Source: Pseudomonas sp. B21-056 (GTDB taxonomy: Bacteria > Pseudomonadota > Gammaproteobacteria > Pseudomonadales > Pseudomonadaceae). From it: 64,000 nt of DNA. Both the position numbers and the translations under genes were made by a program. The stretch lies in the NCBI RefSeq assembly GCF_026016325.1, contig NZ_CP087203.1, positions 4,526,001 to 4,590,000 of the forward strand. The letters run 5' to 3'. The notes beneath the pieces are model-generated. The model made no database searches and had not been told where the DNA came from. It was given only the letters and a program-made list of their open reading frames with translations. Positions 20,339 to 35,942 of this stretch are shown piece by piece; position 1 is the first letter of the stretch, and every line of letters begins with the position of its first letter.

Positions 20339-21649
20339 CTACAACTCGATGCGCTCGACCTTCCCGACCAGCAGGATGTAGGACAGCGCGCCAGCCAGTG
20401 CCAGAACGGCGATGTAGGTGATGGCCGGGGCAAACGAATCGCCGTTGGCGAGGAAACCGATGACAATCGGCGTGGCGATGGCCGCCAGGTTACCGATGAA
20501 GTTGAACACCCCACCCGTCAGCCCGAGCAACCGCGCTGGGGCCAGGGTCGACACCAGCGACCAGGTGATCGACGCCAGGCCATTGCCGAAGAAGGCCAGC
20601 GCCAGGAACGCGATCACCAATGGCGTCGATTCGACGAAGTTGGCGCCGATGATCGAGGTCGAAATCAGCAACCCGCCAATGATCGGCAGCTTTCGGGCGA
20701 AGCCTACCGTGGCGCCGCGACGGATCAACCAGTCGGAGAAGAACCCGGAACACAACACGCCAACGAACGCCGCGAGAAAGGGCAACGACGCCAACAGACC
20801 GGACTTGATGAAGTCCATGCCGCGGTACTTCACCAGATAAGTCGGGAACCACGTCAGGAAAAACCACAGCGTGGAGTTCAGGCAGAACTGCCCCAGATAA
20901 ATGCCCCACAGCTTGCGCTGGGTCAGGACGATACCGAGGTCGGTCCAGCTGAACTTCGTCTTGGCCTTGGTGGTTTCGGCCTGGATGTCCACCAGCCCGC
21001 CGCCCTCGCGAATCAAATCGATTTCAGCGGCATTGGCGCCTTTGAAATCCCGAGGCTCGCGATACACCGCGTACCAGATCACCGCCCAGATGATGCCTAC
21101 CGCACCGGTTACCACGAACACCATGTGCCAGCCGAACGCGTGCTGCAGCCAGGCCAGCACCGGCGTCAGGAAAGCCAGGCCAACGAACTGCCCGGAGGTG
21201 TAGAAGCCAATGGCGGTGGCGCGCTCGCGCTCGGGGAACCAAGTGGTGACCACCCGACTGTTGATGGGATAGGCCGGCGCCTCCAGGGCGCCGACCGCCA
21301 TGCGCAACACAAACAAGGCGATGAAACTGGCGGCGAAACCGAGCATCACCGTGGCCGCCGACCACAACAGCAGCGCGACGCTATACAGGATCCGCGGCGG
21401 CACCCGGTCCACCAGCCAGCCACCGGGGATCTGCATGGCGGCGTAGGTCCAGCCGAATGCCGAGAAGATCAGCCCGACATGGATCGGATCGATGCCCAGT
21501 TCACTGGTCAGTGCGGGGGCGGCAATCGACAGGTTGCTGCGGTCCAGGTAGTTGATCACCACGGTGATGAACAGCAGGACCATGATGAAAAAACGCTTGC
21601 GGCTGGGCGTCACCAACGACGCCTGCGCGCTCAGGGTGTGCGCTTGCAT
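20339..21649 (-). CDS. MFS sugar-acid transporter, galactonate/hexuronate type (DgoT-like)
   Basis: Permease of 436 residues from the anion:cation symporter (ACS) branch of the major facilitator superfamily. It has about 12 hydrophobic segments. The first carries the ACS-like VVINYLDRSNLSIAAPAL, and loop 2-3 has the motif GGWLVDRVPPR. A long hydrophilic loop (about residues 200-235) lies between the two six-helix halves. Location between dgoD and iclR argues for D-galactonate uptake with protons, as in E. coli DgoT. Related hexarate or hexuronate substrates are possible. Confidence 0.85.
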   Translation of the reverse strand: MQAHTLSAQASLVTPSRKRFFIMVLLFITVVINYLDRSNLSIAAPALTSELGIDPIHVGLIFSAFGWTYAAMQIPGGWLVDRVPPRILYSVALLLWSAATVMLGFAASFIALFVLRMAVGALEAPAYPINSRVVTTWFPERERATAIGFYTSGQFVGLAFLTPVLAWLQHAFGWHMVFVVTGAVGIIWAVIWYAVYREPRDFKGANAAEIDLIREGGGLVDIQAETTKAKTKFSWTDLGIVLTQRKLWGIYLGQFCLNSTLWFFLTWFPTYLVKYRGMDFIKSGLLASLPFLAAFVGVLCSGFFSDWLIRRGATVGFARKLPIIGGLLISTSIIGANFVESTPLVIAFLALAFFGNGLASITWSLVSTLAPARLLGLTGGVFNFIGNLAAIATPIVIGFLANGDSFAPAITYIAVLALAGALSYILLVGKVERIEL

Positions 21650-21821: not shown

Positions 21822-22970
21822 TCACCACTCGGCAAAACTGCCATCGGCATGGCGCCAGATCGGATTACGCCAGCGGTGGCCGACGGCGGCGCGTTCGATG
21901 ACGTATTCCTCGTTGATCTCGATGCCCAGGCCCGGGCCGTTGGGAATCTTCACGAAGCCTTTGTCGTAGTCGAACACCCGCGCATCCTTGACGTAATCCA
22001 GCAGGTCATTGCTCTCGTTGTAGTGGATGCCCAGGCTCTGCTCCTGGATGAACGCGTTGTAGCAAGCCGCATCCAGTTGCAGGCACGCCGCCAGGGCAAT
22101 CGGGCCCAGCGGGCAGTGCAGCGCCAGCGCCACGTCGTAGGCCTCGGCCATGTTGGCGATCTTGCGGGTTTCGGTGATACCACCGGCGTGGGACGCATCC
22201 GGCTGGATGATGTCCACATAGCCTTCACTGAGCACCCGTTTGAAATCCCAACGGGAAAACAGCCGCTCGCCCAAGGCAATCGGGGTGCTGGTCAGCGGCG
22301 CCAGCTCCTTGAGCGCTTCGTAGTTTTCGCTGAGCACCGGTTCTTCGATGAACATCAGTTTGTACGGGTCGAGTTCCTTCATCAGCACCTTGGCCATCGG
22401 CTTGTGGACCCGGCCGTGGAAGTCCACGCCAATGCCAACGTTCGGCCCGACCGCGTCCCGCACCGCTGCCACGTTGGCGAGTGCCAGGTCGACTTTTTCA
22501 AAGGTATCGAGGAACTGCAGCTCTTCGGTGCCGTTCATCTTCACCGCGGTGAAGCCCCGTCCTACAGCTTCTTTCGCGGCGCGAGCAGTGTCCGCCGGCC
22601 GGTCGCCGCCGATCCAGGAGTAGACGCGAATCTTGTCGCGAACCTGACCGCCCAGCAGGTCGCTGACCGACACGCCCAGGGCCTTGCCCTTGATGTCCCA
22701 CAGTGCCTGGTCGATACCGGCCAGGGCGCTCATGTGCACGGCGCCGCCACGATAGAAACCGCCGCGATAGAGCACGGTCCAGATGTCTTCGATGTTGCGT
22801 GGGTCTTTGCCGATCAGGTAGTCGGACAATTCCTCAACGGCGGCCGCCACCGTATGGGCACGGCCCTCGACCACAGGCTCACCCCAACCGGTGACGCCCT
22901 CGTCGGTTTCGACCTTGAGGAAGCACCAGCGCGGCGGGACGATAAAAGTGGTCAGTTTGGTGATTTTCAT
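21822..22970 (-). CDS. dgoD: D-galactonate dehydratase
   Basis: Enolase-superfamily dehydratase of 382 residues that converts D-galactonate to 2-dehydro-3-deoxy-D-galactonate. Mg2+ ligands Asp183 (GVDFHGR), Glu209 (FIEEPV) and Glu235 (ALGERLF), and the catalytic His185 and His285 (ALHCPLGP), fall at the positions known for E. coli GalD. Length and N-terminus ([23 protein letters not shown]) also match closely, so this is one of the safest functional calls in the window. It lies 48 nt downstream of dgoA in the dgo operon. Confidence 0.95.
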
Positions 22971-23018: not shown

Positions 23019-23639
23019 TCAGTTCAAGGCATTCCACGCGGCCACGTAGGCCTTGGCGCGCACCGCCACTTCGGCAGCCGTCAGGCCCGGCTTGAACAGC
23101 CCGGAGCCCAGGCCGAAACCCTTGACGCCCGCCTCGAGGAACATCGCCATGTTGTCCGGTGTGATCCCACCCACCGGCACCAGCACGGTCCCGGCCGGCA
23201 ACACCGCGAGCCAGGCCTTGACCACCGCCGGGCCCATTTGCTCGGCGGGAAACAGTTTCAACACATGGGCGCCTTCGGCCAGCGCGGCAAAAGCCTCGGT
23301 CGGCGTGGCGACGCCGGGCGACAGATAGAGTCCCGCCGCTTTCGCCGCCCGCAGCACTTTTGGATCGCTGTGGGGCATGACGATCACCTGGCCACCGGCG
23401 GCCTTCACCTGCTCCACCTGCTCCGGCGTGAGCACGGTGCCGGCACCGATCAGGCAATCGGCGGGCAAGGTATTGCGCAGGATGCGGATACTTTCGTACG
23501 GCTCGGGGGAATTGAGCGGTACTTCGATGACGCGAAATCCGGCGCTGTACAGGACTTCGCCAATGGCTGCCGCCTCTTCGGGACGCAGACCGCGCAGGAT
23601 CGCGATCAGCCCGTTGTGCGCCAGTGCTTGTGTGAGCAT
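23019..23639 (-). CDS. dgoA: 2-dehydro-3-deoxy-6-phosphogalactonate aldolase
   Basis: Class I KDPG/KDPGal aldolase of 206 residues. It cleaves 2-dehydro-3-deoxy-6-phosphogalactonate to pyruvate and glyceraldehyde 3-phosphate. The Schiff-base Lys is residue 128 in HVLKLFPAEQ and the general acid/base Glu is residue 39 in VIEVPLNSP. The phosphate-binding loops (GAGTVLTPEQV, PVGGITPDNMAMFLEAGVKGFGLGSGLF) match the DgoA subgroup. It follows dgoK by 19 nt. Unlike E. coli, aldolase and dehydratase are separate genes with no fusion. Confidence 0.93.
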   Translation of the reverse strand: MLTQALAHNGLIAILRGLRPEEAAAIGEVLYSAGFRVIEVPLNSPEPYESIRILRNTLPADCLIGAGTVLTPEQVEQVKAAGGQVIVMPHSDPKVLRAAKAAGLYLSPGVATPTEAFAALAEGAHVLKLFPAEQMGPAVVKAWLAVLPAGTVLVPVGGITPDNMAMFLEAGVKGFGLGSGLFKPGLTAAEVAVRAKAYVAAWNALN

Positions 23640-23658: not shown

Positions 23659-24642
23659 TTAGCGCGATGCGCTGGATTCGAGCAGCCCGGCCGCTACAGC
23701 CAGTTGCCACAAACCCCGTTCGGTGGCCTGTTCGGCCAGGGTCACCCGGGCAAAGCCGCAGGCGTCGAGGGCCCGCTGGTAGCGAGCACAGAGTTGGGAG
23801 TTGCCGATCAGCACCACCGTCGGCAAGTGCACGCTGTTGCGCCGATGGCGTTGTGTGGTGGCCAATGCCGTCAGTTCATGGCCAATCAACAAACCAGAGA
23901 GATAGTCAGCCTGGGCGCTCGCGCCGAGCTCACCGGTCAGCCCCAGGCTGCGAGCGCTGAACACGGTGGACAGCGGACCGATCTGCCCGTCCGTCGACAG
24001 CGCCACCTGCACACCGCGATCGAAGGCCACGCCGTCGAACGCCGTACCGCGCTGCTGGGTACGGCCGAGAATGCTGTGGTCGCTGAGCACGGCGAAGATT
24101 TCGCCAGTCATGAAAGTATCGAAGTGCACGATGCAGCCGTCGGCCACTTCCACCCATTTCGAGTGGCTGCCGGGCAGGCCGATCAGCACCGCTTCGTTCG
24201 GCAGGCTGTGCAAGGCGCCGAGCACCTGGGTTTCTTCGCCGCGCATCACATTGGGCAACCGCGAGCGCTGGATCACCCCTGGCACGATGTGCACATCGAC
24301 ACCGCGAAGGCTCCGAACGGTTTGTAGGGAATGTCCGAGATTGGCGACGTTCGCCGGTGTGTCGCAGTAAGGCGCTTCGCACCAGCCCTGGGCGCTGCCG
24401 ACCATGCCGCAGGCAATGACGGGCAGGCCCGGCTGTGCGTCCAGCCAGTCACCACAGGCCTCGTCGAACGCCAGCTCGAAACCATCGGTGCAAACCCGGC
24501 CGGCCACGATCCGCGGCCCGGCGGGCAACTGCATGATCCCCGATGACAGCGAGCGCTGTTCGAGCACCTCGCCTCCCGCGGCGAGTTTGTAAGCCCGTAG
24601 TGAGGTAGTCCCCCAATCGAGCGCGATCAATTGCGCCTGCAT
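23659..24642 (-). CDS. dgoK: 2-dehydro-3-deoxygalactonokinase
   Basis: Sugar-acid kinase of 327 residues that phosphorylates 2-dehydro-3-deoxy-D-galactonate with ATP. The N-terminal phosphate-binding motif ALDWGTTSLRAY is characteristic of the DgoK family. Further conserved blocks are VIACGMVGSAQGW and VLIGLPGSHSKWVEVADGCI. ATG 24642 (MQAQLIALDWG) is preceded by AGGTGAAG; a 21-residue upstream extension is not used. It heads the dgo operon, with a promoter at 24683-24712. Confidence 0.93.
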   Translation of the reverse strand: MQAQLIALDWGTTSLRAYKLAAGGEVLEQRSLSSGIMQLPAGPRIVAGRVCTDGFELAFDEACGDWLDAQPGLPVIACGMVGSAQGWCEAPYCDTPANVANLGHSLQTVRSLRGVDVHIVPGVIQRSRLPNVMRGEETQVLGALHSLPNEAVLIGLPGSHSKWVEVADGCIVHFDTFMTGEIFAVLSDHSILGRTQQRGTAFDGVAFDRGVQVALSTDGQIGPLSTVFSARSLGLTGELGASAQADYLSGLLIGHELTALATTQRHRRNSVHLPTVVLIGNSQLCARYQRALDACGFARVTLAEQATERGLWQLAVAAGLLESSASR

Positions 24643-24682
24643 CCGCTTCACCTGTTCTGTTTTTTGGCAGTGAGTGGGACGG

Positions 24683-24712
24683 ACTATAAACCCGGGCGCA
24701 GCCATATCTCAA
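24683..24712 (-). promoter_or_regulatory. Promoter of the dgo operon
   Basis: On the minus strand, TTGAGA (-35, 24707-24712) and TATAGT (-10, 24683-24688) are separated by 18 bp. The -10 lies 40 bp upstream of the dgoK ATG. Both hexamers and the spacer length are the same in the promoter of the SDR dehydrogenase gene at 31842-31871. Confidence 0.75.
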
Positions 24713-24726
24713 TATATAAATATCAC

Positions 24727-24741
24727 TCCCACATATTGGGA
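24727..24741. promoter_or_regulatory. TCCCA-N5-TGGGA palindrome upstream of the dgo promoter
   Basis: Perfect 5-bp inverted repeat TCCCA-CATAT-TGGGA centred about 25 bp upstream of the dgo -35. It lies within a larger imperfect repeat (ATCTCAATAT...ATATTGGGAT, 24706-24742). The same element at the same spacing precedes the SDR gene. It is a probable binding site for the local IclR regulator or another factor shared by both operons. Confidence 0.6.
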
Positions 24742-24829
24742 TATAACAAAGACGTCCGAAACCATCGCTATCCACCCATGACCCTGCTACGTTTTCCGTC
24801 CGGATGCCTTAACTCTCAGGGAAAACGAA

Positions 24830-25462
24830 ATGGGACAACTGCTGAAAATCCTTGGCCGCACTTCCTCGATCAACGTCAGGAAAGTGCTGTGGACTTGCCA
24901 GGAATTGGATATTTCCTACGAACGCGAAGACTGGGGCATCGGCTTCCATTCAACCCACGATCCTGCGTTCCTGGCGCTTAACCCAAATGCCCAGGTCCCG
25001 GTGATCATCGATGAGAACGGTGTGCTCTGGGAGTCGAACACCATCTGCCGTTATTTGGTGGGCAAACATGGCCCCAGCGATCTGCTGCCGCTCGAGCCGG
25101 CGGCCAGGGCCCGGATCGAGCAGTGGATGGATTGGCAGGCGACGGAACTCAACCCGTCATGGGGCTACGCGTTTCACGCGCTGGTGCGCAAGAATCCGGC
25201 TATGCAGGACCCACAATCCATCGCCGCCGGAATCAAAGGCTGGAATGAAAAGATGGGCTTGCTGGAACAGCAGTTGAATCACACCGGCGCTTACGTGGCC
25301 GGTGCGGAGTTTTCCCTGGCGGATGTGCTCATTGGCCTGTCCGTGCACCGCTGGCGTCAGACACCCATGGAGCGACCTGACTACCCAGCGGTAGCCGCCT
25401 ACTGCAAACGCCTTGAGCAGCGGCCCGGGTTTGCCGAGTGGGCATCCGCCGCGCACTCATGA
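24830..25462 (+). CDS. Glutathione S-transferase family protein
   Basis: Protein of 210 residues. It has an N-terminal thioredoxin-like GST domain (LLKILGRTSSINVRKVLWTCQELDISYE; NPNAQVPVIID with the cis-Pro; LWESNTICRYLVGKHG) and an all-helical C-terminal domain (AGAEFSLADVLIGLSVHRW). The likely activating residue is Ser12 or Ser13. ATG 24830 follows CAGGGAAAACGAA. Divergent from dgoK but with no evident role in sugar catabolism; the substrate is unknown. Confidence 0.87.
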   Translation: MGQLLKILGRTSSINVRKVLWTCQELDISYEREDWGIGFHSTHDPAFLALNPNAQVPVIIDENGVLWESNTICRYLVGKHGPSDLLPLEPAARARIEQWMDWQATELNPSWGYAFHALVRKNPAMQDPQSIAAGIKGWNEKMGLLEQQLNHTGAYVAGAEFSLADVLIGLSVHRWRQTPMERPDYPAVAAYCKRLEQRPGFAEWASAAHS

Positions 25463-25467
25463 ACCAT

Positions 25468-25950
25468 TCAGTTGCCTTGGGCGAAATCCCGTAGCACCTT
25501 GCCGTCCATTCGGTAGCGCACCCATTCTTCCTGGGGTTGCGCGCCGAGGGACTTGTAGAACTCGATTGCCGGCGTGTTCCAGTCCAGGACGCTCCATTCG
25601 AAACGACCGCAATCATTGTCGCAGGCGACTTTGGCCAGGTGACGCAACAACGTCTTGCCCGCCCCGCCGCCACGCTGCTCGGGTGTGATGTACAGGTCTT
25701 CAAGGTACAGGCAGTTGCTGCCCAACCAGGTCGAGTAGCTGAAGAAAAACACCGCGAAACCGATCGGTACGCCATCGCGCAGGCAGATCAGCCCGTGGGC
25801 AGTCGCACCTTCGCTGAACAGGCTGCGCTCGATGTCGGCCACACTGGCGATGACTTCGTGACGGGCTTTTTCGTAGTCGGCCAGTTCGGTGATGAAGGCA
25901 AGGATTTGAGGCGCATCGCTGGGTTGCGCAGGACGGATCTCGATCGACAT
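25468..25950 (-). CDS. GNAT-family N-acetyltransferase
   Basis: Protein of 160 residues with the GNAT fold. The N-terminal strand IEIRPAQPSDAPQILAFITELADYEK is followed by the acetyl-CoA-binding motif A (LYLEDLYITPEQRGGGAGKTLLRHLAKVA; Q/R-x-x-G-x-G/A form) and motif B (RFEWSVLDWNTPAIEFYKSLGA). The arrangement resembles the diamine/thialysine acetyltransferase branch, but the substrate is not fixed by the sequence. It converges on the GST gene with a 5-nt gap. Confidence 0.87.
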   Translation of the reverse strand: MSIEIRPAQPSDAPQILAFITELADYEKARHEVIASVADIERSLFSEGATAHGLICLRDGVPIGFAVFFFSYSTWLGSNCLYLEDLYITPEQRGGGAGKTLLRHLAKVACDNDCGRFEWSVLDWNTPAIEFYKSLGAQPQEEWVRYRMDGKVLRDFAQGN

Positions 25951-26125
25951 GAACGGGCCTTGTAGCCAATTGAAAGCGCCATACTAAGCCGCTACGCGAC
26001 GCTCGTCACATCTCAATCCAAATCAGGACGAACCGGCGAAAGCACCATTCGTCGCCCCCGAGGCACCAACCTCGATCCAGCACGGCCCAAGATCAGGCAA
26101 GCATCTGAAAAATGGAGGCGACACC

Positions 26126-26470
26126 ATGATCACTTCAAGGCTGACTGCATTCACATTTGCCGCACTGTTGTCTTCGGTGGCCTTCGCGGCGTCCACCTCG
26201 GGTACCGGACCGACCGACCCGGTGGAGGCACCCAACTCGCCGGCCACCCAGGGCATGCCCAAGTTGAACACCGACGGCACCGGCGGCGGCACCTTGAACA
26301 ACGGTCAGCCGCCCGCCACTGGCACCGATCCGCGCGTGCAGGGTAATGACATGGGCCGTCAGGGTGGCCTGAACACACCGGACTCTACAGCACCCGACAA
26401 CGCAGAAACCGGCGTGGGCTCGAAAACCACCACCGGTGGTTCGGGCTCCGAAGGCGGCGCCAGCCAGTAG
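26126..26470 (+). CDS. Small exported Gly/Thr/Asn-rich protein of unknown function
   Basis: Protein of 114 residues with a signal peptide (MITSRLTAFTFAALLSSVAFAAS). The mature region is low-complexity and probably disordered (GTGGGTLNNGQPPATGTDPRVQGNDMGRQGG and TTTGGSGSEGG). It has no Cys and no recognised domain. The start has GGAGG 9 nt upstream. It lies 32 nt upstream of the next small gene, probably in the same transcript. Function unknown. Confidence 0.75.
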   Translation: MITSRLTAFTFAALLSSVAFAASTSGTGPTDPVEAPNSPATQGMPKLNTDGTGGGTLNNGQPPATGTDPRVQGNDMGRQGGLNTPDSTAPDNAETGVGSKTTTGGSGSEGGASQ

Positions 26471-26502
26471 CCTCTGCTCACACACTTGAGGAGGAACATC
26501 CC

Positions 26503-26883
26503 ATGCCTCGTGGAAGCAAAGACAAATACACCGCCGAGCAAAAGCGCAAGGCCGAACACATCGAGAAAAGCTACGAGAAGAAAGGCCTGTCCGAGGAGAC
26601 GGCCGAGGCGCGGGCTTGGGCGACGGTGAACAAACAGTCCGGCGGTGGCGAGCGTTCCGGCGGTTCGGGGAAAAGTAAACCGGCCACGGAAAAGAAAACC
26701 GACCGCAAGGAGTCGGCCCGCCGCGCAGCCAAGACCCGGGAAGGGCATCCGCGCACCAGCAAGGCCTCCCATGAAACCCAGACGGTCGACAGCCTGATGA
26801 AGGAAGCCCGGGCGAAAAACATTCCCGGGCGTTCGAAGATGCGCAAGCAGGAATTGATCGAGGCGTTGCGCAAGGCAGCATGA
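26503..26883 (+). CDS. Small basic protein with Rho_N-like C-terminus
   Basis: Very basic protein of 126 residues. The N-terminal part is KDKYTAEQKRKAEHIEKSYEKKGLSEETAEARAWATVNKQSGGG, the pattern of proteins often annotated as plasmid stabilisation. A Lys/Ser/Gly-rich linker follows. The C-terminal SLMKEARAKNIPGRSKMRKQELIEALRKA fits the helix-extended-loop-helix of Rho termination factor N-terminal/SAP domains, which bind nucleic acid. GAGGAGG precedes the ATG. No toxin or plasmid context is present, so a toxin-antitoxin role is not supported. Confidence 0.75.
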   Translation: MPRGSKDKYTAEQKRKAEHIEKSYEKKGLSEETAEARAWATVNKQSGGGERSGGSGKSKPATEKKTDRKESARRAAKTREGHPRTSKASHETQTVDSLMKEARAKNIPGRSKMRKQELIEALRKAA

Positions 26884-26895
26884 TCGTTGGCGCCA

Positions 26896-27061
26896 GGGCC
26901 GACGCCATCGCGAGCAGGCTCGCACATGGGGTCTGCGGCATGCACGGGTTCCGTGATAACCACAAAACCCTGTGGGAGCGAGCTTGCTCGCGATAGCGCC
27001 AGATCAGTCAACATCAACTTTGAATGTGCCGACGCCTTCGCGAGCAAGCTCGCTCCCACAC
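26896..27061. repeat. Cluster of three REP palindromes
   Basis: One truncated copy (GCCATCGCGAGCAGGCTCGCACAT, about 26908) is followed by an inverted pair (TGTGGGAGCGAGCTTGCTCGCGATAGCG near 26972 and CTTCGCGAGCAAGCTCGCTCCCACA near 27036). They lie between the small basic gene and the araH-like stop. Confidence 0.85.
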
Positions 27062-27077
27062 TGAGTGGTGGGAGGCT

Positions 27078-28046
27078 TCAGCGCTGCTTCATACGGTCGA
27101 TGACCACGGCGAGCAGCAGGATCGAACCACGGATGACGTATTGGTAGAAGGTGTCGATGTTCTTCAGGTTCATCGCGTTTTCGATGATCGCCAGAATCAG
27201 TACCCCGGCAATCACATGACGGATCATGCCGATACCACCGCTCAACGAGACCCCACCCAGCACACACGCCGAGATCACCGTCAGTTCGAAGCCCTGGCCG
27301 ATCATCGGTTGGCCGGAGGTCATGCGCGAGGCCAGGATCACCCCCGCCAGCGCGCCGATCACCCCGTGCACGGCGAAGATGATGATCTTGGTGCGATCAA
27401 CGTTCACCCCCGCCAGCAACGCCGCTTCCTGGTTGCCACCAATGGCCATGGTGTTGCGCCCATAGGTGGTGTAGTTCAACAACCAGCCGAAAAACAGAAA
27501 GCAGACGATGGTAATCACGATCGGTACCGGCACACCAAACAACTGGCCGTTGCCATACACGAAGAACGACTCCTGGGACACACCCACTGCCTTGCCGTTG
27601 GCAAAGATGTAGGCCAGGCCGCGAACGATCTGCATGGTCGCCAGCGTGGTGATCAAGGCATTGACCCGCAGCTTGGCAATGACGATGCCGTTGATCAGGC
27701 CAACGATCAGCCCCATCACCAGCGCCGCGCTGACACCCAGGAACACGCTGTTGGTGTCACGCATCACCACCGCCGCGACCACGCCGGCACAGGCGATCAC
27801 CGAGCCGACCGACAAGTCGAAGTGCCCGGACGCCAGGCAATACAACATGGTGCAGGCCGCGATGCCGGTCGTGGAAATCGCCAGGCCCAGGCCCCGCATG
27901 TTCAGCGGCGACAGGAAGTTGTCGATCAGCAAGGTGCAGAGCACGAAGATGCCGATGGCCGCCAGCAGCATGACCCAGTCGTCGAGGAAACGACGCATGT
28001 CCAGGGGTTTGCGTGCCGTCGGCAGTGCATTGTTTTGAATGGTCAT
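27078..28046 (-). CDS. Sugar ABC transporter permease (AraH-like)
   Basis: Inner-membrane permease of 322 residues from the ribose/arabinose/galactose branch of ABC importers, with 8-10 hydrophobic segments. Family signatures are DLSVGSVIACAGVVAAVVM, IVGLINGIVIAKLRVNALITTLATM, YGRNTMAIGGNQEAALLAGVNV (EAA-like coupling loop) and VLGGVSLSGGIG. The last of three genes (binding protein, ATPase, permease), 10 nt after the ATPase. In context it imports galactose, arabinose or both. Confidence 0.9.
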   Translation of the reverse strand: MTIQNNALPTARKPLDMRRFLDDWVMLLAAIGIFVLCTLLIDNFLSPLNMRGLGLAISTTGIAACTMLYCLASGHFDLSVGSVIACAGVVAAVVMRDTNSVFLGVSAALVMGLIVGLINGIVIAKLRVNALITTLATMQIVRGLAYIFANGKAVGVSQESFFVYGNGQLFGVPVPIVITIVCFLFFGWLLNYTTYGRNTMAIGGNQEAALLAGVNVDRTKIIIFAVHGVIGALAGVILASRMTSGQPMIGQGFELTVISACVLGGVSLSGGIGMIRHVIAGVLILAIIENAMNLKNIDTFYQYVIRGSILLLAVVIDRMKQR

Positions 28047-28056
28047 GATTTACCTC

Positions 28057-29601
28057 TCAGTTCGCCGCGTCGGCAACGCGTTGGCGTGGCAGCGCCAGTT
28101 GCAGCAGGTTGGATTCGTTGGCCTGGTCACGCGACAGCTCGCCGCGCATGGCCCCTTCGCACAGCACCAGGATCCGGTCGGAAATGCCCATCACCTCCAT
28201 CAGGTCGCTGGACACCACAATCACCGCGATGCCATCGGCCGCCAGGTTGTGGATGATCTGGTAGATCTCAGCCTTGGCACCGATGTCGATACCCCGGGTA
28301 GGTTCGTCCAGCAGCAGGACTTTCATCGGCATCGACAGCCAGCGACCGAGAATCGCCTTCTGCTGATTGCCGCCGGACAGGTACATGATTTTCTGCCCCG
28401 CCGTCGGGGTCTTCACTTTCAACGCCTTGATCTGCTTGTCGGCGTTGCCCTTCTCCCAATCGCCGCGCAACAGGCAGCCGAGGGTGGAATGGGCACTGCG
28501 GGCGCTGATGTTGATGTTCTCGCCGACGCTCGCCAGGGGCATGATGCCTTCCTTCTTGCGGTCTTCCGGGCAGAGCAGTACGCCGGCGGCGATGGCATCC
28601 CGGGGCGAGCGCAGTTTCAGCGCCTCTCCGTGCAGCACCAGGCTGCCTTCGGTCTGGCGTTCCAACCCGCTGAGCAAGCGCAGCAACTCGGTACGCCCGG
28701 CCCCTACCAGCCCGAACAACCCGAGGATTTCGCCTTTGTGCACCTGGAAACTCACTGGCTCACGCAAGCCCGGGCCGAGCAGGCGATCAACCTGCAGCGC
28801 CACTTCACCGCGCTCACGGGCACGGTAATCATAGATGTCCTGGATGTCGCGACCGACCATGCAGGTGACCAATTGATCGTGGGTCAACTCGCTCATGTTC
28901 TCGAAGGTGCGCACGTAGCGCCCGTCCTTGAACACCGTCACCGCGTTACAGATGCGGAACACCTCTTCCATACGGTGACTGACATACAGCACCACTTTGC
29001 CCTCATCCCGCAGGCGGGCGATGATCGCCATCAAGCGGTCGATTTCCCGTGCCGAAAGGCTGCTGGTGGGCTCATCGAAAGCAATCACATGGGCGCCACG
29101 GGACAAGGCCTTGGCGATTTCCACCAGTTGACGCTGGCCCAGTGACAGGCGACCGACCTTTTCCTGGGGATCGATTTCATCGGCCAGGCCCTTGAGCAGC
29201 GCCAACGCCTGCTGGCGCAACACGCCGCGATTGACCAGGCCGAAACGGGCCGGCAAATGGCCGAGGAACAGATTCTCGGCCACCGTCATTTCCGGCACCA
29301 GGTGCAGCTCCTGGTGAATCACCGCCACACCGCTGGCGATGCTGTCGGCCGTGCATTTGAAGGCCATCACCTGCTCGCCGATCTGCAGCTCGCCGCTGCT
29401 CGGGATGTAGGCACCGCCCAGGATCTTCAGCAACGTGGACTTGCCCGCGCCGTTTTCCCCCATCAAGGCATGAACCTGGCCTGGATGGGCAACAAAACTG
29501 ATATTGGCCAGCGCCTGCACGCCGGGAAAGGCCTTGCCGATTCCATTGAACCGCAAGCTGGCGCCGATGTTGTGTTGCTGTGTCGCTGTTTGCGCTTGCA
29601 T
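28057..29601 (-). CDS. Sugar ABC transporter ATPase (AraG-like), double nucleotide-binding domain
   Basis: Protein of 514 residues with two fused ABC domains, as in AraG, RbsA and MglA. The first has Walker A GENGAGKST, signature LSLGQRQLVEIAKALS and Walker B VIAFDEPTS. The second has a degenerate Walker A (GLVGAGRTEL), signature LSGGNQQKAILGRWL and Walker B VLLLDEPTRGIDIGAKAEIYQ. ATG 29601 follows CGAGGTGGTT; a 12-residue upstream extension overlaps the intercistronic hairpin and is not needed. Confidence 0.93.
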   Translation of the reverse strand: MQAQTATQQHNIGASLRFNGIGKAFPGVQALANISFVAHPGQVHALMGENGAGKSTLLKILGGAYIPSSGELQIGEQVMAFKCTADSIASGVAVIHQELHLVPEMTVAENLFLGHLPARFGLVNRGVLRQQALALLKGLADEIDPQEKVGRLSLGQRQLVEIAKALSRGAHVIAFDEPTSSLSAREIDRLMAIIARLRDEGKVVLYVSHRMEEVFRICNAVTVFKDGRYVRTFENMSELTHDQLVTCMVGRDIQDIYDYRARERGEVALQVDRLLGPGLREPVSFQVHKGEILGLFGLVGAGRTELLRLLSGLERQTEGSLVLHGEALKLRSPRDAIAAGVLLCPEDRKKEGIMPLASVGENINISARSAHSTLGCLLRGDWEKGNADKQIKALKVKTPTAGQKIMYLSGGNQQKAILGRWLSMPMKVLLLDEPTRGIDIGAKAEIYQIIHNLAADGIAVIVVSSDLMEVMGISDRILVLCEGAMRGELSRDQANESNLLQLALPRQRVADAAN

Positions 29602-29625
29602 AACCACCTCGAACTCACAGAGATC

Positions 29626-29653
29626 AAGCGGCCCCAAGACACCGGGGCCGCTT
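29626..29653 (-). promoter_or_regulatory. Intercistronic hairpin between the binding-protein and ATPase genes
   Basis: A perfect 10-bp GC-rich stem (AAGCGGCCCC/GGGGCCGCTT) with an 8-nt loop lies between the sugar-binding protein stop and the ATPase start. On the minus (transcribed) strand there is no T-run after it. It therefore more probably protects the binding-protein message from 3' decay, giving excess binding protein over ATPase, than terminates transcription. Confidence 0.65.
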
Positions 29654-29669
29654 TTGAATCAACCGGCCA

Positions 29670-30674
29670 TCAATTCCACAGGCCGATCTTCTCCAGCTCC
29701 TGCTTGAAGTTCTCCCGGGTGATCAGCGTCACCTCGTCCATGGCGGTGTACTTCGGTGGTTCCTTGCCGGTGGTGACCCACTCGAACATCATCTCGGCAG
29801 TCTTGTAGCCTTCGATGTGCGGGCTAGGCAGCATCGAACCGAAGAAGCCGCTGTGGGGTTTCTTCAGCTCGCCGATGGCGTCGGTGCCGTTGATGCCGAT
29901 CCCGATCACGTTGTCTGCCTTGAAGCCGGCGCTTTCCGTCGCACGCACGCCACCCAGCACGGTGTTGTCGTTCATGCCGCCAATAATCAGGTTCTTCGCG
30001 CCGCTGGGCAGTTTCACCAGGGCGGAGTTGGTGGAGTCCATGCTCCCCGGTACGTCGAGGGTCTTGAGCGCCGTGGTGAGGATGTGATCGTCCGGCATAC
30101 CGGCTTTCTTCAGGGCGTCAATCGAACCGTCGGTGCGTTTCTTGCCGGTGTCCAACTCGTTGAAGGTGTTGATCACAGCGTAGGTGTCTTTCCAGTCCCA
30201 ACCACGTTTTTTGGCTTCGGTGGCCATGGCGGTACCCTGCTTCTGGCCGACTTCGAATGCGGCCATGCCCAGGTACGGCACGTCTTCCATGAACTTGCCG
30301 TTGGCATCGACAAAACGGTCATCGACAGCGATGACTTTCATGTCGTTGAGCTTGGCCTTGGCCATGATGGCCGGGCCCAGGGACACATCCGGCGGGCAGA
30401 TCACAAAGCCCTTGGCGCCGTTGGCCGCCAGGCTGTCGATGGCCGAGAGGGTCTTCTCGCCATCGGGCACGGCAATCTTGATCACCTTGAAGCCCTTGTC
30501 CTTGCCCGCCTTCTCGGCGAACGCCCATTCGGTCTGGAACCAGGGTTCCTCGGCCTGCTTGACCAGAAAACCGATCTTCACTTCTTCAGCCGCCAGCAAG
30601 CTACTGCTGAGACCGACCGCGGCAACTGCCAGGGCAACGCGGCACAGGGAACGGATCCCACGACGATGATTCAT
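29670..30674 (-). CDS. Periplasmic sugar-binding protein (AraF-like)
   Basis: Exported protein of 334 residues with a signal peptide ending LLAAEE. The mature chain reads VKIGFLVKQAEEPWFQTEWAFA, as in the L-arabinose-binding protein AraF (the Lys/Glu/Trp region of the sugar pocket). Later AraF-like blocks are AVDDRFVDANGKFMEDVPYLGM, NTFNELDTGKKRTDGS and IIGGMNDNTVLGG. ATG 30674 follows CAAGGAGTCAAC. AraF-type proteins bind both L-arabinose and D-galactose; the galactonate genes nearby favour galactose as a physiological ligand. Confidence 0.92.
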   Translation of the reverse strand: MNHRRGIRSLCRVALAVAAVGLSSSLLAAEEVKIGFLVKQAEEPWFQTEWAFAEKAGKDKGFKVIKIAVPDGEKTLSAIDSLAANGAKGFVICPPDVSLGPAIMAKAKLNDMKVIAVDDRFVDANGKFMEDVPYLGMAAFEVGQKQGTAMATEAKKRGWDWKDTYAVINTFNELDTGKKRTDGSIDALKKAGMPDDHILTTALKTLDVPGSMDSTNSALVKLPSGAKNLIIGGMNDNTVLGGVRATESAGFKADNVIGIGINGTDAIGELKKPHSGFFGSMLPSPHIEGYKTAEMMFEWVTTGKEPPKYTAMDEVTLITRENFKQELEKIGLWN

Positions 30675-30789
30675 AGTTGACTCCTTGTTTTTTTTATTGA
30701 AAGCCAAACGTCCAGGGTCTGCTCCACCATCGGTGGCAAAGCGCAGGCTGGGCGGTCACAGCAAGTTGCTACAGCATAGATCCAAATAG

Positions 30790-30802
30790 TCATATCGTAT
30801 GA
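30790..30802. promoter_or_regulatory. TCATA-N3-TATGA palindrome upstream of the sugar importer
   Basis: Perfect 5-bp inverted repeat TCATA-TCG-TATGA, part of GTCATATCGTATGATGATTGG, in the region where the promoter of the binding-protein gene should lie. The flanking TATGATGATT occurs again in reverse over the palindrome upstream of the GntR regulator (33561-33572). This makes it a likely GntR operator. Confidence 0.6.
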
Positions 30803-30846
30803 TGATTGGATTACAGGCAAAGTTTCCGACTGTAATCCCGGAATAT

Positions 30847-31665
30847 TCAGTCGTGGTACATGACCGAACGTCCACCATCAATGGTGATGCATGAAGCGTT
30901 GATGAAAGGTGCTTCATCACTGGCCAGGAACACGGCCGTCATTGCCACTTCGATCGGTTGCCCGATGCGGCGTGGCGGGTGCAGATCCAGCGCACGCTGG
31001 CGTTCGGCATGAGGATCGGCGAAGCCGTTCCAATAGTCGACGTTCAGTTGGGTTTCGATATAGCCCGGCGCGATGGCGTTGACGCGTATGCCCCTGGGGG
31101 CGTACTCGATGCCCAGGGCACGGGTCAGGCCGAGCAAGCCATGCTTGGCCACCGGATAAGGGAAACAGCCGGGAATGATGTGGGACGAATGGGTCGACGC
31201 AATGTTGATGATGCTGCCCACGCCCTGCTCGATCATTTGCGGCAGCACCGCCTTGCAGCCGTACCAGGCACCGTCCAGGTCGATGGCGAAGCAGCGGCGC
31301 CAGTCTTGCTCGGTCATTTCCAGCGGGTCGCGGAACACGTTGACGCCGGCGCAGTTCACCAGCACATCGATACGGCCATGCAACTCAACGGCACGGCGGG
31401 CCAACGCATGCAGGTCCTGCTGGTTCGACACATCGGCTTGCAATGCTTGCACGTCCGCCCCGCGTTCACGCCAGTGAGCGGCGACCTGTTCGACTTTGCC
31501 CGCCTGGATGTCGCTGATCACCAGGCGTGCCTGTTGTGAAGCGAACGCGGCGACGATCGCCTCGCCAATGCCCTGGGCGGCACCGGTCAGCAGCACCACT
31601 TTATTCTTCAGTCGCTCGCCCTTCGGTGGTTCGGGCACCGGCGGCAAGGAAAGCACCTCAGCCAT
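30847..31665 (-). CDS. SDR-family sugar 1-dehydrogenase (probable D-galactose/L-arabinose dehydrogenase)
   Basis: Short-chain dehydrogenase of 272 residues. It has NAD(P) motif TGAAQGIGEA, NNAG-equivalent VNCAGVN, catalytic Ser in INIASTHSSH, and Tyr/Lys in YPVAKHG. A Pro-rich N-terminal extension of about 20 residues precedes the Rossmann fold. Location with a sugar lactonase, a sugar ABC importer and galactonate enzymes indicates oxidation of an aldose to its lactone, the first step of the De Ley-Doudoroff route. ATG 31665 has AGGGGAG upstream. It lies behind a leader shared with dgoK. Confidence 0.85.
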   Translation of the reverse strand: MAEVLSLPPVPEPPKGERLKNKVVLLTGAAQGIGEAIVAAFASQQARLVISDIQAGKVEQVAAHWRERGADVQALQADVSNQQDLHALARRAVELHGRIDVLVNCAGVNVFRDPLEMTEQDWRRCFAIDLDGAWYGCKAVLPQMIEQGVGSIINIASTHSSHIIPGCFPYPVAKHGLLGLTRALGIEYAPRGIRVNAIAPGYIETQLNVDYWNGFADPHAERQRALDLHPPRRIGQPIEVAMTAVFLASDEAPFINASCITIDGGRSVMYHD

Positions 31666-31789
31666 GGATCACCGCTCCCCTGTCCGAATGCACGCCAAAA
31701 ACCGGGCATCCAGGGATGACCGGCCGAAGGCGCTGGGAAGACACTGGGTCACGCACGCCACTTGGGCGTGCGGGAATGAATCGTTGCAT
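31658..31789 (-). CDS. Candidate 43-residue leader peptide ahead of the SDR gene
   Basis: A short frame begins at ATG 31789 directly behind CAGGTGAAG, a ribosome site almost identical to that of dgoK. It runs through the leader (MQRFIPARPSGVRDPVSSQR...) and stops with TGA 8 nt inside the SDR gene in another frame. Either it is a translated upstream ORF coupling to the dehydrogenase, or it is a by-product of a copied dgoK promoter/ribosome-site segment. Its sequence has no recognisable domain. Confidence 0.35.
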   Translation of the reverse strand: MQRFIPARPSGVRDPVSSQRLRPVIPGCPVFGVHSDRGAVIHG

Positions 31790-31841
31790 CACTTCACCTG
31801 TTTTGTTTTTTTAGTGTGAGTGCATGTTGCTGATGAAGCCG

Positions 31842-31871
31842 ACTATAAACCCGGCCGGCAAACAATCTCAA
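31842..31871 (-). promoter_or_regulatory. Promoter of the SDR dehydrogenase gene, copy of the dgo promoter
   Basis: On the minus strand, TTGAGA (31866-31871), 18 bp and TATAGT (31842-31847) match the dgo promoter exactly in hexamers and spacing. Downstream bases up to CAGGTGAAG and ATG are also alignable. Confidence 0.75.
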
Positions 31872-31885
31872 TATATATATTTACA

Positions 31886-31900
31886 TCCCATATTCTGGGA
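31886..31900. promoter_or_regulatory. TCCCA-N5-TGGGA palindrome upstream of the SDR promoter
   Basis: TCCCA-TATTC-TGGGA, the same inverted repeat as at 24727-24741 and at a similar distance upstream of the -35. It lies directly past the stop codon of the lactonase gene. Confidence 0.6.
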
Positions 31901-31901
31901 T

Positions 31902-32777
31902 TCAACCCGCAAACCGCGTACAGCCCACCCCGGGCACATCGACCCGCATGGACAGCACCGCACCGTCCAGCGGATGCCCCAGCGGACTGGCTGCGCTGGT
32001 GATGTACAGGGTCTTGAGGTCTTCACCGCCGAACACGCAACTGGTGGGGCGACTGACCGGCAGTTCGATCACCCGGTCGACCTGACCGTCAGGGTTGATT
32101 CGCAGCAGGCAACTGCCGTCCCAGCGGGCGTTCCAGATATACCCGCGGGCGTCCATCGCCGATCCGTCCGGCCCGCCGCGCGAATGGGGGCCGAACCAGA
32201 CTTCGGCCGGCGCCAGGCTGCCATCGGCACGGATGAAATGCCGGTACAACGTACCGTCGAGGCTTTCACCGAAATACACCGTGGTGCCGTCAGGGCTCCA
32301 CAACAGCGTGTTGGGAATCCCCCGCTCGCGTAGCAACGGCATGACCCGGCCATCGACGCCCACGCGAAACAAGCCTCCGGACCGGCGCTTCAGGGGCAGG
32401 TCCTCACCGTTATCACCGATGTTGTTCTGCATGGTGCCGAGCCAGAGCTGACCCTGGGCATCGCAACGGGCTTCATTGGCTCGATTGCCGGGTTGGGGGT
32501 CGGCCATGCACAGCAGCGTCAGGCGCGGCTCCAGACCGGGCGAATCCAGGTCCAACCGGTAGACACCGCTGCTCAATGTCACCAGCGCATCACCGCCCTG
32601 TGTCGGGATGAAGGCCGACACATGTTCGGGCATCTGCCAGATCTCGACATTGGCGCCGATCAACCGCAGCGCCTGTTTGCCCGCGATGTCGACCCAATAC
32701 AGCGCCTGGGTCGGCGCGTCCCAGAATGGTCCCTCGCCCAGTTTCGCCCGGTGCTCCGTTACCGCCTTCCACATCAT
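31902..32777 (-). CDS. SMP-30/gluconolactonase-family sugar lactonase
   Basis: Six-bladed beta-propeller lactonase of 291 residues. Metal ligands expected for the family are visible: Glu14 in LGEGPFWD, Asn in GNRANEARCDAQGQLWLGTM, Asn in RGIPNTLLWSPDG and Asp in GPDGSAMDARGYIWNARW. It would open the lactone made by the nearby dehydrogenase to galactonate (or a related aldonate). The start ATGATG at 32777 overlaps the GntR stop (ATGA), with AGGAGG inside the end of the regulator gene, so the two are translationally coupled. Confidence 0.9.
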   Translation of the reverse strand: MMWKAVTEHRAKLGEGPFWDAPTQALYWVDIAGKQALRLIGANVEIWQMPEHVSAFIPTQGGDALVTLSSGVYRLDLDSPGLEPRLTLLCMADPQPGNRANEARCDAQGQLWLGTMQNNIGDNGEDLPLKRRSGGLFRVGVDGRVMPLLRERGIPNTLLWSPDGTTVYFGESLDGTLYRHFIRADGSLAPAEVWFGPHSRGGPDGSAMDARGYIWNARWDGSCLLRINPDGQVDRVIELPVSRPTSCVFGGEDLKTLYITSAASPLGHPLDGAVLSMRVDVPGVGCTRFAG

Positions 32778-33520
32778 TGAAACCTCCTGTTTCCGGCTTG
32801 CCCGGCAGTGTCTGTACGACCGGCCATCACGTCAGGGTAGAAGCGCTTGATGGCCAGGTCAGCGTTATCGATCAGGGTCATGCAGGCCCAGACACCGCGC
32901 GTCGCGTCGCGGGTCGCGATGGCTTCGGCAATGTCCTTGTGAATGGGCAAGGTGCGGCGCAGCTCATCCGGATCAGCAGCCGACACCTCGAACGACACCG
33001 CCAGCAACGCGCCCAGGGCCGGGACCATTTGTTCTATGAATTGATTGTGGCTGGCGGCGAGGATGCACTCGTGGAAAAACTGGTCGGCCCGGTTGTAGTC
33101 GGCACCGCTGTCCACGGCCCGCTCCAGCGCATGGTAAGCCAGGCGGATCGCCTGCACCTGCTCAACCGTCGCCCGCTCGCAAGCCCAGCGCACCGCCATC
33201 GGCTCGATGGTGCGGCGCAGGTCCAGCAGGTCATCGACAAAGTTCTCCGGCAAGCCGCTGCGTGACAGCCACCCGACCACCTGTGGGTCGAACAGATTCC
33301 AGCGCCGCACCGGCAACACCCGAGTGCCGACTTTCGGCCCGACCTCGAGCATGCCCTTGGCCACCAGAGTCTTGATCGCCTCGCGAATCACCGTGCGACT
33401 GACCCCCAGTTGCTCGCCCAGGTCCGCCTCGACCTTGATGGTCTGCCCAGGCTTGACCTGACCGGCGGCAATCCAGGCGCCCAGCCAATCGACGGTCGAT
33501 GCGTGAAAACTGCTGGACAT
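32774..33520 (-). CDS. FadR-subfamily GntR regulator of the sugar genes
   Basis: Protein of 248 residues. A GntR winged helix covers residues 10-75 (GAWIAAGQVKPGQTIKVEADLGEQLGVSRTVIREAIKTLVAKGMLEV...GTRV). The all-helical FCD effector domain has metal-type residues (DLRRTIEPMAVRWACE, DQFFHECILAASHN, HKDIAEAI). ATG 33520 is chosen over the GTG at 33538, which has no ribosome site. Overlap with the lactonase gene shows coupling. Likely effector is the aldonate or lactone of the pathway, by analogy with DgoR-type regulators. Confidence 0.88.
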   Translation of the reverse strand: MSSSFHASTVDWLGAWIAAGQVKPGQTIKVEADLGEQLGVSRTVIREAIKTLVAKGMLEVGPKVGTRVLPVRRWNLFDPQVVGWLSRSGLPENFVDDLLDLRRTIEPMAVRWACERATVEQVQAIRLAYHALERAVDSGADYNRADQFFHECILAASHNQFIEQMVPALGALLAVSFEVSAADPDELRRTLPIHKDIAEAIATRDATRGVWACMTLIDNADLAIKRFYPDVMAGRTDTAGQAGNRRFQ

Positions 33521-33562
33521 GAAAACCCCGCGGGCCACTCTTATGGGTGGCTCACGCTAATC

Positions 33563-33572
33563 ATCATATGAT
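33563..33572. promoter_or_regulatory. ATCATATGAT palindrome upstream of the GntR gene
   Basis: Perfect 10-bp palindrome 43 bp upstream of the gntR start. It is flanked by a second ATC half (ATCATCATATGATTGG) and resembles the site upstream of the sugar-binding protein gene. Probable autoregulatory operator. Confidence 0.55.
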
Positions 33573-33602
33573 TGGCTGTCAATTGAATTGTATGAAATCC
33601 CC

Positions 33603-34973: not shown

Positions 34974-35942
34974 TCAGCCGCCGATGATCTTCATGATGGT
35001 CGCGCCCCCGGAAAATGCCACTTCCTGCTTGTCTCCCAAGGCCTTGACCAGCAGCCGTTGCAGGGCCGGCAACGCCTCGTGACGGGGCTTGTCCAGAAGG
35101 TCGCCGACAAAGTGACGATTGCTCGAGGACAGGCAACCATGCAGCCAGCCCGTGGAGGACAACCGCAACCGTGAACAGGTGCGGCAGAAAGGCACGCTTT
35201 CGTTGGCGATCACGCCGAAATAGCCCATGCCAGGGATCTCATAGCGCACCGCCGTCGCATCTACCGGCGCGTTGGCTTGCAGGTATTCGTATTGGTCACC
35301 GATCAGGCTCAACAGTTGTTGCAGGCTGACAAACTGCTGCAAGAACGCGTTGGAATCGCTGGCCAGGTGCCCCATGCGCATCAACTCGATGAAGCGCAGC
35401 TCATAGCCACGCGCCAGGCAGTACTCGAGCAATGGCATCACCTGATCCAGGTTCTGCCCACGCAACGGCACCATATTGACCTTGATCTTCATGCCCGCCG
35501 CATGGGCCTGGTCCATGCCGTCGAGCACCGTTGCCAGGTCGCCGCCACGGGCAATGCTGCGAAACGCACTCGGGTCCAGGGTGTCGAGGGAAACGTTGAT
35601 GCGGCGGATACCCGCGTCCACCAGTAAAGGCAGTTTCTTCGCCAGCAACTGGCCGTTGGTGGTCAGGCTGATGTCCTCCAACCCCATCTGCCCTACCGCC
35701 GCCATGAAGCGTTCGAGCTTGGGACTGACCAGCGGTTCGCCCCCGGTGATGCGCAGACGCTCGATGCCGGCCGCTTCGATCAGGTAAGCCACGCCTCGCG
35801 CCATCGCTTCGGCCGACAACTCATCCTGCGCAGCCACCAGGCGCTTGCCGTCAGGCACGCAGTAGGTGCAGGCGTAGTTGCAGGCGGAAGTCAGGCTGAT
35901 CCGCAAATTGCGGAAGCGCCTGCCCTGACGGTCAACGATCAT
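34974..35942 (-). CDS. moaA: GTP 3',8-cyclase (molybdenum cofactor biosynthesis protein A)
   Basis: Radical SAM enzyme of 322 residues that, with MoaC, converts GTP to cyclic pyranopterin monophosphate. The N-terminal [4Fe-4S] motif has Cys21, Cys25 and Cys28 (SACNYACTYC). The second cluster uses CRTCSRLRLSSTGWLHGC near residues 250-270. The radical-SAM TGGEPLV and the C-terminal Gly-Gly needed for activity are present. It stands alone, without moaB, moaC, moaD or moaE nearby. The molybdoenzyme operon at 54.9-59.3 kb is one consumer of its product. Confidence 0.93.
   Translation of the reverse strand: MIVDRQGRRFRNLRISLTSACNYACTYCVPDGKRLVAAQDELSAEAMARGVAYLIEAAGIERLRITGGEPLVSPKLERFMAAVGQMGLEDISLTTNGQLLAKKLPLLVDAGIRRINVSLDTLDPSAFRSIARGGDLATVLDGMDQAHAAGMKIKVNMVPLRGQNLDQVMPLLEYCLARGYELRFIELMRMGHLASDSNAFLQQFVSLQQLLSLIGDQYEYLQANAPVDATAVRYEIPGMGYFGVIANESVPFCRTCSRLRLSSTGWLHGCLSSSNRHFVGDLLDKPRHEALPALQRLLVKALGDKQEVAFSGGATIMKIIGG

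Follow-up and report, generated by a model that had tools for sequence, protein, structure and literature searches.

The stretch analysed here (64,000 nucleotides of the soil bacterium Pseudomonas sp. B21-056, contig NZ_CP087203.1, positions 4,526,001 to 4,590,000; referred to below as the window) carries two sugar operons with similar control regions, locus A and locus B. A sequence-only reading of this DNA had placed a common promoter and leader of about 100 bp in front of dgoK (24640–24745) and in front of a gene for an SDR dehydrogenase (31787–31903), and had attributed it to duplication of a control region served by one factor, most simply the IclR protein. From A, the gene order is dgoK-dgoA-dgoD-MFS-iclR; from B, it is SDR-araF-araG-araH, immediately preceded upstream by gntR and a gene for a lactonase of the SMP-30 type. 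Based on family names, which suggest the substrates, we read the genes around A and B as functions for galactose (or arabinose) uptake and oxidation and for galactonate breakdown. The closest named species, judged by the iclR gene, are P. corrugata, P. mediterranea and P. thivervalensis. The features of the two loci and their operons are as follows (window coordinates).

24706–24741, minus strand: 36-bp operator of locus A, consisting of the palindrome TCCCAATATGTGGGA (24727–24741) and a third half-site TGAGA (24707–24711), 20 bp from TGGGA (alignment, pattern searches, promoter profile).
24683–24712, minus strand: promoter of locus A, with -35 TTGAGA (24707–24712), an 18-bp spacer and -10 TATAGT (24683–24688); the distance is the same in the ungapped profile of 79 promoters.
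24646–24668, minus strand: A-rich tract of locus A (AANAANAA with one mismatch, by eye) and ribosome-binding site (RBS) CAGGTGAAG (24646–24654).
23659–24642, minus strand: dgoK, 2-keto-3-deoxy-galactonokinase (Pfam PF05035).
23019–23639, minus strand: dgoA, 2-dehydro-3-deoxy-6-phosphogalactonate aldolase (NCBIfam NF006600).
21822–22970, minus strand: dgoD, galactonate dehydratase (NCBIfam NF010624).
20339–21649, minus strand: dgoT-type MFS transporter (TIGR00893, above cut-off).
19464–20279, minus strand: IclR-family regulator, last gene of the dgo cluster and proposed cognate regulator of A and B (Pfam PF09339 and PF01614; co-occurrence).
31865–31900, minus strand: 36-bp operator of locus B, consisting of the palindrome TCCCAGAATATGGGA (31886–31900) and a third half-site TGAGA (31866–31870) (alignment, pattern searches).
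31842–31871, minus strand: promoter of locus B, with -35 TTGAGA (31866–31871), an 18-bp spacer and -10 TATAGT (31842–31847).
31792–31813, minus strand: A-rich tract of locus B with AANAANAA, and RBS CAGGTGAAG (31792–31800).
30847–31665, minus strand: SDR dehydrogenase, proposed galactose/arabinose 1-dehydrogenase, the substrate being suggested by the family (NCBIfam NF005469).
27078–30671, minus strand: araFGH-type ABC transporter, whole set, with AraH at 27078–28046 and AraG at 28057–29604 (NCBIfam).
29670–30671, minus strand: AraF, named by place and sequence alone.

Local alignment of A and B gives a score of 79, whereas the maximum over 5000 dinucleotide shuffles of A against B is 33 and the best unrelated tiles of the window reach 27 with A and 31 with B. 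Both loci contain a sigma-70-type promoter, TTGAGA-18-TATAGT, that matches 10 of 12 consensus bases, and both show the same order of parts: TCCCA-N5-TGGGA, the third half-site TGAGA 20 bp further on within the -35 hexamer, the 18-bp spacer, GGTTTATAGTC, an A-rich tract, the RBS and a start codon. The similarity noted by the sequence-only reading is thus found where it was placed, on the minus strand at both loci, together with every shared part it had named precisely (RBS CAGGTGAAG, TATAGT, the 18-bp spacer, TTGAGA, ATCTCAATATATA and TCCCA-N5-TGGGA). Its insertion of about 12 nt corresponds to about 13 extra nucleotides in B relative to A, located after the -10 element. Two of its statements hold in part. 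The shared T-rich stretch is present, but it is A-rich on the coding strand and matches AANAANAA in B; and although locus B does lie before the SDR gene, the copied ATG is not the SDR start, but opens a 43-codon open reading frame (ORF), with the SDR ATG 124 nt further.

The palindrome alone proves little, since there are five copies of bare TCCCA-N5-TGGGA in the 6.45-Mb genome, counting A and B (reversed control, one), and a rough estimate for 10 fixed bases predicts about six chance places per genome. We therefore discarded it as a genome-wide marker. The 36-bp unit is found at two places in the same genome, with none for the reversed control. A chance or repeat-element match between A and B could appeal to the count of the bare palindrome; it conflicts with the shuffle test, the distribution over genomes and the gene context, and we regard its probability as negligible.

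For the survey of 199 Pseudomonas genomes, we used a strict pattern (TCCCAN5TGGGA, a free gap of 8–20, then ATATTGAGAT) with the reversed pattern as control. It occurs in 69 genomes (control, 0), and among the matches listed all are 36 bp long, which places TCCCA, TGGGA and TGAGA at a single spacing. A fixed pattern with up to three mismatches is found in 126 of the 199 genomes (control, 0). The 90 motif loci examined (79 distinct places, 11 of them taken twice) lie before dgoK in 60 cases, before SDR-araFGH in 28 and before an MFS gene in two. An ungapped profile was built from 79 unique promoters, including the two of the window and excluding the two MFS sites. Upstream of the operator it contains at most 0.47 bit; the 36 bp are strongly conserved, and GGTTTATAGTC follows at a fixed distance, each of its bases being present in 66–79 of the 79 promoters. 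TGAGA inside the -35 hexamer is a repeat of the right arm, TGGGA, at a distance of exactly 20 bp; two genomes of another family have a perfect TGGGA as their third box. In 75 of 80 named loci selected with iclR, the site is situated 60–140 nt before dgoK; the other five stretches end before the dgoK start. Both MFS genes preceded by the operator are TIGR00893-like, below the cut-off of that model, and in both loci (L043 in G085 and L060 in G184) a dehydrogenase gene follows; these genes are likely an extra member of the regulon.

The regulator proposed for these sites has an HTH_IclR domain (PF09339, 43.8 bits) and an IclR_C domain (PF01614, 103.8 bits). At E ≤ 1e-60, with a limited number of candidates scored per genome, iclR is present in 128 of the 199 Pseudomonas genomes, and 125 genomes carry both iclR and motif, i.e. 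125 of the 126 motif genomes and 125 of the 128 iclR genomes. The single motif genome lacking iclR is 86% complete. The three iclR genomes without a pattern match have iclR genes of 51–53% identity by tblastn. In these three (L135–L137), a three-box site with a degenerate first box can be read by eye before iclR-dgoA (two genomes) or iclR-dgoK-dgoA (one genome); the automatic three-box pattern listed no site before iclR in L135–L137, and the sites were seen by eye in 300 nt. The -35/-10 spacing in these three loci looks like 17 bp, not 18. Three-box operators before iclR were seen in L135–L139 as a whole, by eye in the three loci just described.

Gene placement agrees with this distribution. 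The matches listed cover 87 of the 126 motif genomes. In 78 of these, an operator is followed on its own strand by iclR, at a distance of up to 5.5 kb in 74; among the remaining nine, iclR and the sites are on separate contigs in seven genomes, and no site is found near the gene in two. The gene is part of the dgo operon in the lineage of the window and lies downstream of the SDR-araFGH operator where the two operons are unlinked (e.g., G197, G101 and G139); judged from these positions, it is relocated between its two putative target operons. Outside Pseudomonas, among 194 genomes sampled from the order, iclR (E ≤ 1e-55) is present only in two genomes of one genus, in both beside dgoK and dgoA, and both carry TCCCATAATATGGGA-N15-TGGGA before iclR-dgoK-dgoA, implying probable autoregulation. 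The pattern search outside Pseudomonas matched one of these two genomes (G234); its other match (G227) has no related gene within 3 kb.

Co-occurrence with the motif, the placement of the gene and the outgroup operators strongly support IclR as the shared factor of A and B, in agreement with the sequence-only reading. The reading of A and B as duplicates of a single IclR-regulated promoter cassette, serving the oxidative galactose pathway, has in our view a probability of about 85%. Sequence conservation, fixed geometry, distribution and gene context are the directly observed part of this best explanation; binding, sign of control, ligand and direction of copying are inferred. On the sequence evidence, the copied IclR-type cassette appears real and the assignment of the regulator strong.

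However, it should be noted that several points weigh against this reading. The genome counts come from related genomes and are not phylogenetically independent. Most operator columns were fixed by the search, so that conservation is partly by construction, the gap of the strict pattern and the -10 region having been left free. The operator before an MFS gene in two genomes indicates a regulon wider than the two operons. TCCCA/TGGGA is not close to the two consensus groups given in the available text of PMC8222616, and the literature searched yielded no binding or expression data for this IclR regulator. Finally, when the RBS-ATG part is removed from the leader comparison described below, 14 of 19 genomes still score above the 95% shuffle level, but only five score above all 500 shuffles.

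Duplication of a control region, as opposed to independent origin, is supported by the leaders of related genomes. From the -10 element to 12 nt past the start codon, A and B align above all 500 shuffles in 19 of 19 genomes, so the similarity persists in related strains that carry both operons, the comparison that the sequence-only reading had named as its test. The upstream flanks exceed the 95% shuffle level in none of the 19 (G176 equals it). Where SDR starts at the leader ATG, six of nine loci begin with ATGCAGGCNCAA and three with ATGCAGCCCCAA, compared with ATGCAGGCGCAA for dgoK, although part of this likeness may be due to codons of SDR itself. In the clade of the window, the copied start lies 84–163 nt before the SDR start in 31 loci. 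An orphaned copied start upstream of SDR and a dgoK-like start context point to dgoK as the source, and the data support copying of the cassette from dgoK to SDR-araFGH, through the start codon, as the probable direction. We also searched the leaders of the window's clade for a dgoK coding remnant beyond the first codons and rejected it: one of 16 leaders (L009) exceeds the 95% shuffle level and none exceeds the maximum.

Convergence of two promoters on one operator and promoter would account for the fact that most shared bases are functional (operator, -35, -10 and RBS), and it fits the lack of shared sequence in the upstream flanks and the modest likeness of the leaders without their RBS-ATG part. 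It does not readily explain the common fixed 18-bp spacer, GGTTTATAGTC, the frequent CACTCAC, the A-rich tract, CAGGTGAAG and the mostly ATGCAR start, nor the dgoK-like SDR starts and the start orphaned in the window's clade, and we consider it quite unlikely. A different rival concerns the regulator: the GntR/FCD protein encoded next to locus B, which the sequence-only reading had named as another candidate, could be the shared factor. The relevant features are the following.

32774–33538, minus strand: GntR/FCD regulator, dispensable for the cassette.
31902–32777, minus strand: SMP-30-type lactonase; its stop codon immediately precedes operator B.
30790–30805, minus strand: TCATCATACGATATGA, proposed GntR operator between SDR and araF.
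33559–33573, no strand assigned: AATCATCATATGATT before gntR, proposed GntR autoregulatory site.

Besides its position beside B, this protein has in its favour that all 65 Pseudomonas genomes (of 199) with a GntR match at E ≤ 1e-50 also carry the motif. However, with at most 13 candidates scored per genome, 61 of the 126 motif genomes have no match at this threshold, and 12 of the 65 matches are only 69–75% identical. Furthermore, cassette B of G196 and G116 is immediately preceded by a MoaA-like gene, and the 4 kb covered contain neither gntR nor lactonase (the MoaA-like gene is 87–91% identical to window 34974–35942, which itself scores 275 bits against a moaA cut-off of 284). A different element, TCATNATAYGATATGA, tracks the GntR genomes: all 36 loci from such genomes have it in the gap between SDR and araF (34 exact, two with one mismatch; two places counted twice). 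The 10 loci from genomes lacking GntR do not have its core in this gap, which is also shorter there, and their best match anywhere in the locus has three to five mismatches. A TCATNATAYGATATGA-like site also precedes gntR, and the window's genome has a single exact match, the site before araF, and one more place at two mismatches (reversed control, one). On the grounds of distribution, gene context and its own apparent motif, we reject GntR as the shared factor and assign it a very low probability in that role; the cassette does not need it. It probably tunes araFGH and itself through the two proposed operators listed above.

Under the IclR reading, the product of the last gene in the dgo cluster would bind the three-box operator, with TCCCA, TGGGA from 10 bp on and TGAGA from 30 bp on, the third box being part of the -35 hexamer. 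The cassette, including leader, RBS and start codon, would have been copied from dgoK to SDR-araFGH in an ancestor within Pseudomonas, and as a result dehydrogenase and uptake would respond together with galactonate breakdown. Repression would be lifted by a pathway intermediate (galactonate or 2-keto-3-deoxygalactonate). A repressor relieved in this way is the sign of control that we somewhat favour, while a dual regulator seems rather unlikely.

An obligate activator binding upstream of -35, the sign that the sequence-only reading had derived from the position of the palindrome, is possible and clearly less probable than a repressor. PcaU and PobR are known three-box activators according to the available text of PMC8222616, and the operator ends at the -35 box, which is the place of a class-II activator. 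Against an activator, the -35 TTGAGA and -10 TATAGT match 10 of 12 consensus bases, and the portion of PMC6927180 at hand describes P. putida KT2440 in which SBW25 dgoKAD functioned from its native promoter, giving slow growth on galactose after a 52-h lag and faster growth when araAB was added to that operon. Lineages with unlinked operons have iclR behind the SDR-araFGH operator, so the gene probably did not accompany SBW25 dgoKAD into the new host; if the cognate IclR was indeed absent from the KT2440 construct, the promoter works without it, which favours repression. The long lag could represent hidden adaptation. As the third half-site coincides with the -35 hexamer, it suits a repressor and a class-II activator equally, and a palindrome upstream of -35 does not establish an activator; the expression of dgoKAD in P. 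putida argues against an obligate one. For the transport operon, induction of AraFGH genes by root exudates in some strains is mentioned in the available part of PMC8079746.

The arrangement resembles the sites of PcaU, PobR and HmgR, for which the available text of PMC8222616 describes a palindrome with an external direct half-site and tandem sites 18–22 nt apart. Shared features are this architecture, an IclR-family regulator, and a site at a catabolic operon and, in our outgroups, before the regulator's own gene. In contrast, the half-site here is TGGGA/TGAGA and not GTNCG, the third box is fused with -35, the pathway concerns a sugar acid and not an aromatic compound, and two operons carry copies of one cassette. 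The IclR protein scores 91 bits against the PcaU/PcaR/PobR model TIGR02431, below the cut-off of 284.75, and is not a member; by analogy, it may work like these proteins without membership. KdgR, one of the sugar-acid repressors of the IclR family, acts in 2-keto-3-deoxy sugar acid metabolism. Our protein shares family and type of metabolism with it and matches NCBIfam NF011671 with 103.4 bits, but this is below the cut-off of 275 bits, and the operator is different. A description of the regulon was absent from the literature searched; a prediction of it may already exist in RegPrecise or among the 181 orthologous groups of IclR-family regulators tabulated in the supplement of PMC8222616, both of which lay outside that search.

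The cassette offers a testable regulator, operator and regulon for oxidative (De Ley-Doudoroff) galactose use in Pseudomonas, and with the third box on -35, the sign of control can be tested directly. As an example of a regulatory cassette being copied with its start codon, which placed a second operon under an existing regulator, it is unusually clear, and the later divergence of the copy is visible in relatives. The leader of locus B contains two further features.

31658–31789, minus strand: 43-codon leader ORF beginning at the copied ATG, with a stop codon that overlaps the start codon of SDR.
31698–31723, minus strand: terminator-like hairpin CCGGTCATC-CCTG-GATGCCCGG followed by a T-run, within the leader ORF.

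AANAANAA is described as the Hfq/Crc CA motif in the available text of PMC10617552. All 18 unique B leaders contain it, as do 27 of the 42 unique A leaders; mononucleotide shuffles reach at most 8 and 6, respectively. Its position directly before the RBS is that of Hfq/Crc sites of Pseudomonas catabolic genes, with the difference that locus A of the window has the one-mismatch form only; the site is thus a candidate by sequence, and Hfq/Crc action on the leader is our inference. Of 35 B leaders of the window's clade, 31 were measurable; the start pattern missed L110 and L111, and the leader insert is lost in L100 and L115. The ORF from the copied ATG ends over the SDR start in 25 of the 31 and three bases before it in the other six. 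It is open in all 31, but so is frame 1 in 27 of them, which makes openness weak evidence. The hairpin CCGGNCATC-N4-GATGNCCGG is exact in 25 of the 31 leaders, 24 of these with a T-run; pairing holds in 97.1% of cells and covariation is low. In the window's genome, hairpin plus T-run has one exact place, locus B, and three places at two to three mismatches (control, one). No Rfam family was found in 31600–31910 up to an E value of 5, and the hairpin of the B leader is missing from the output of a simple terminator scan, perhaps owing to an internal mismatch. For region A, the scan output includes the palindrome itself, upstream of the promoter.

In leader-peptide attenuators, a short ORF in the leader of an operon overlaps a terminator-like hairpin. 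The B leader has the same layout, but covariation is little, two relatives have lost it and an alternative frame is nearly as open; an attenuator in the window's clade is possible. In such a scheme, Hfq/Crc on the A-rich site would block translation of the 26–56-codon leader ORF and leave the hairpin uncovered, so that transcription would terminate ahead of SDR-araFGH. In the absence of Hfq/Crc, translation of the ORF, which finishes at the SDR start, would be coupled to that of the operon. That the copied dgoK start was turned into a regulatory leader of this kind, i.e. catabolite repression by translation-coupled attenuation arising from a duplicated promoter, is speculative and, in our view, improbable.

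Two minor observations concern the surroundings of locus B. Large inverted repeats rich in GGGAGC/GCTCCC seem by eye to lie just upstream of operator B in L116, L117, L118 and L121, all from lineages with unlinked operons. Additionally, a second A-rich tract (AATAAAAAAAACAAGGAG) precedes araF in window 30672–30849, and the araFGH transporter genes may have an Hfq/Crc site of their own there.

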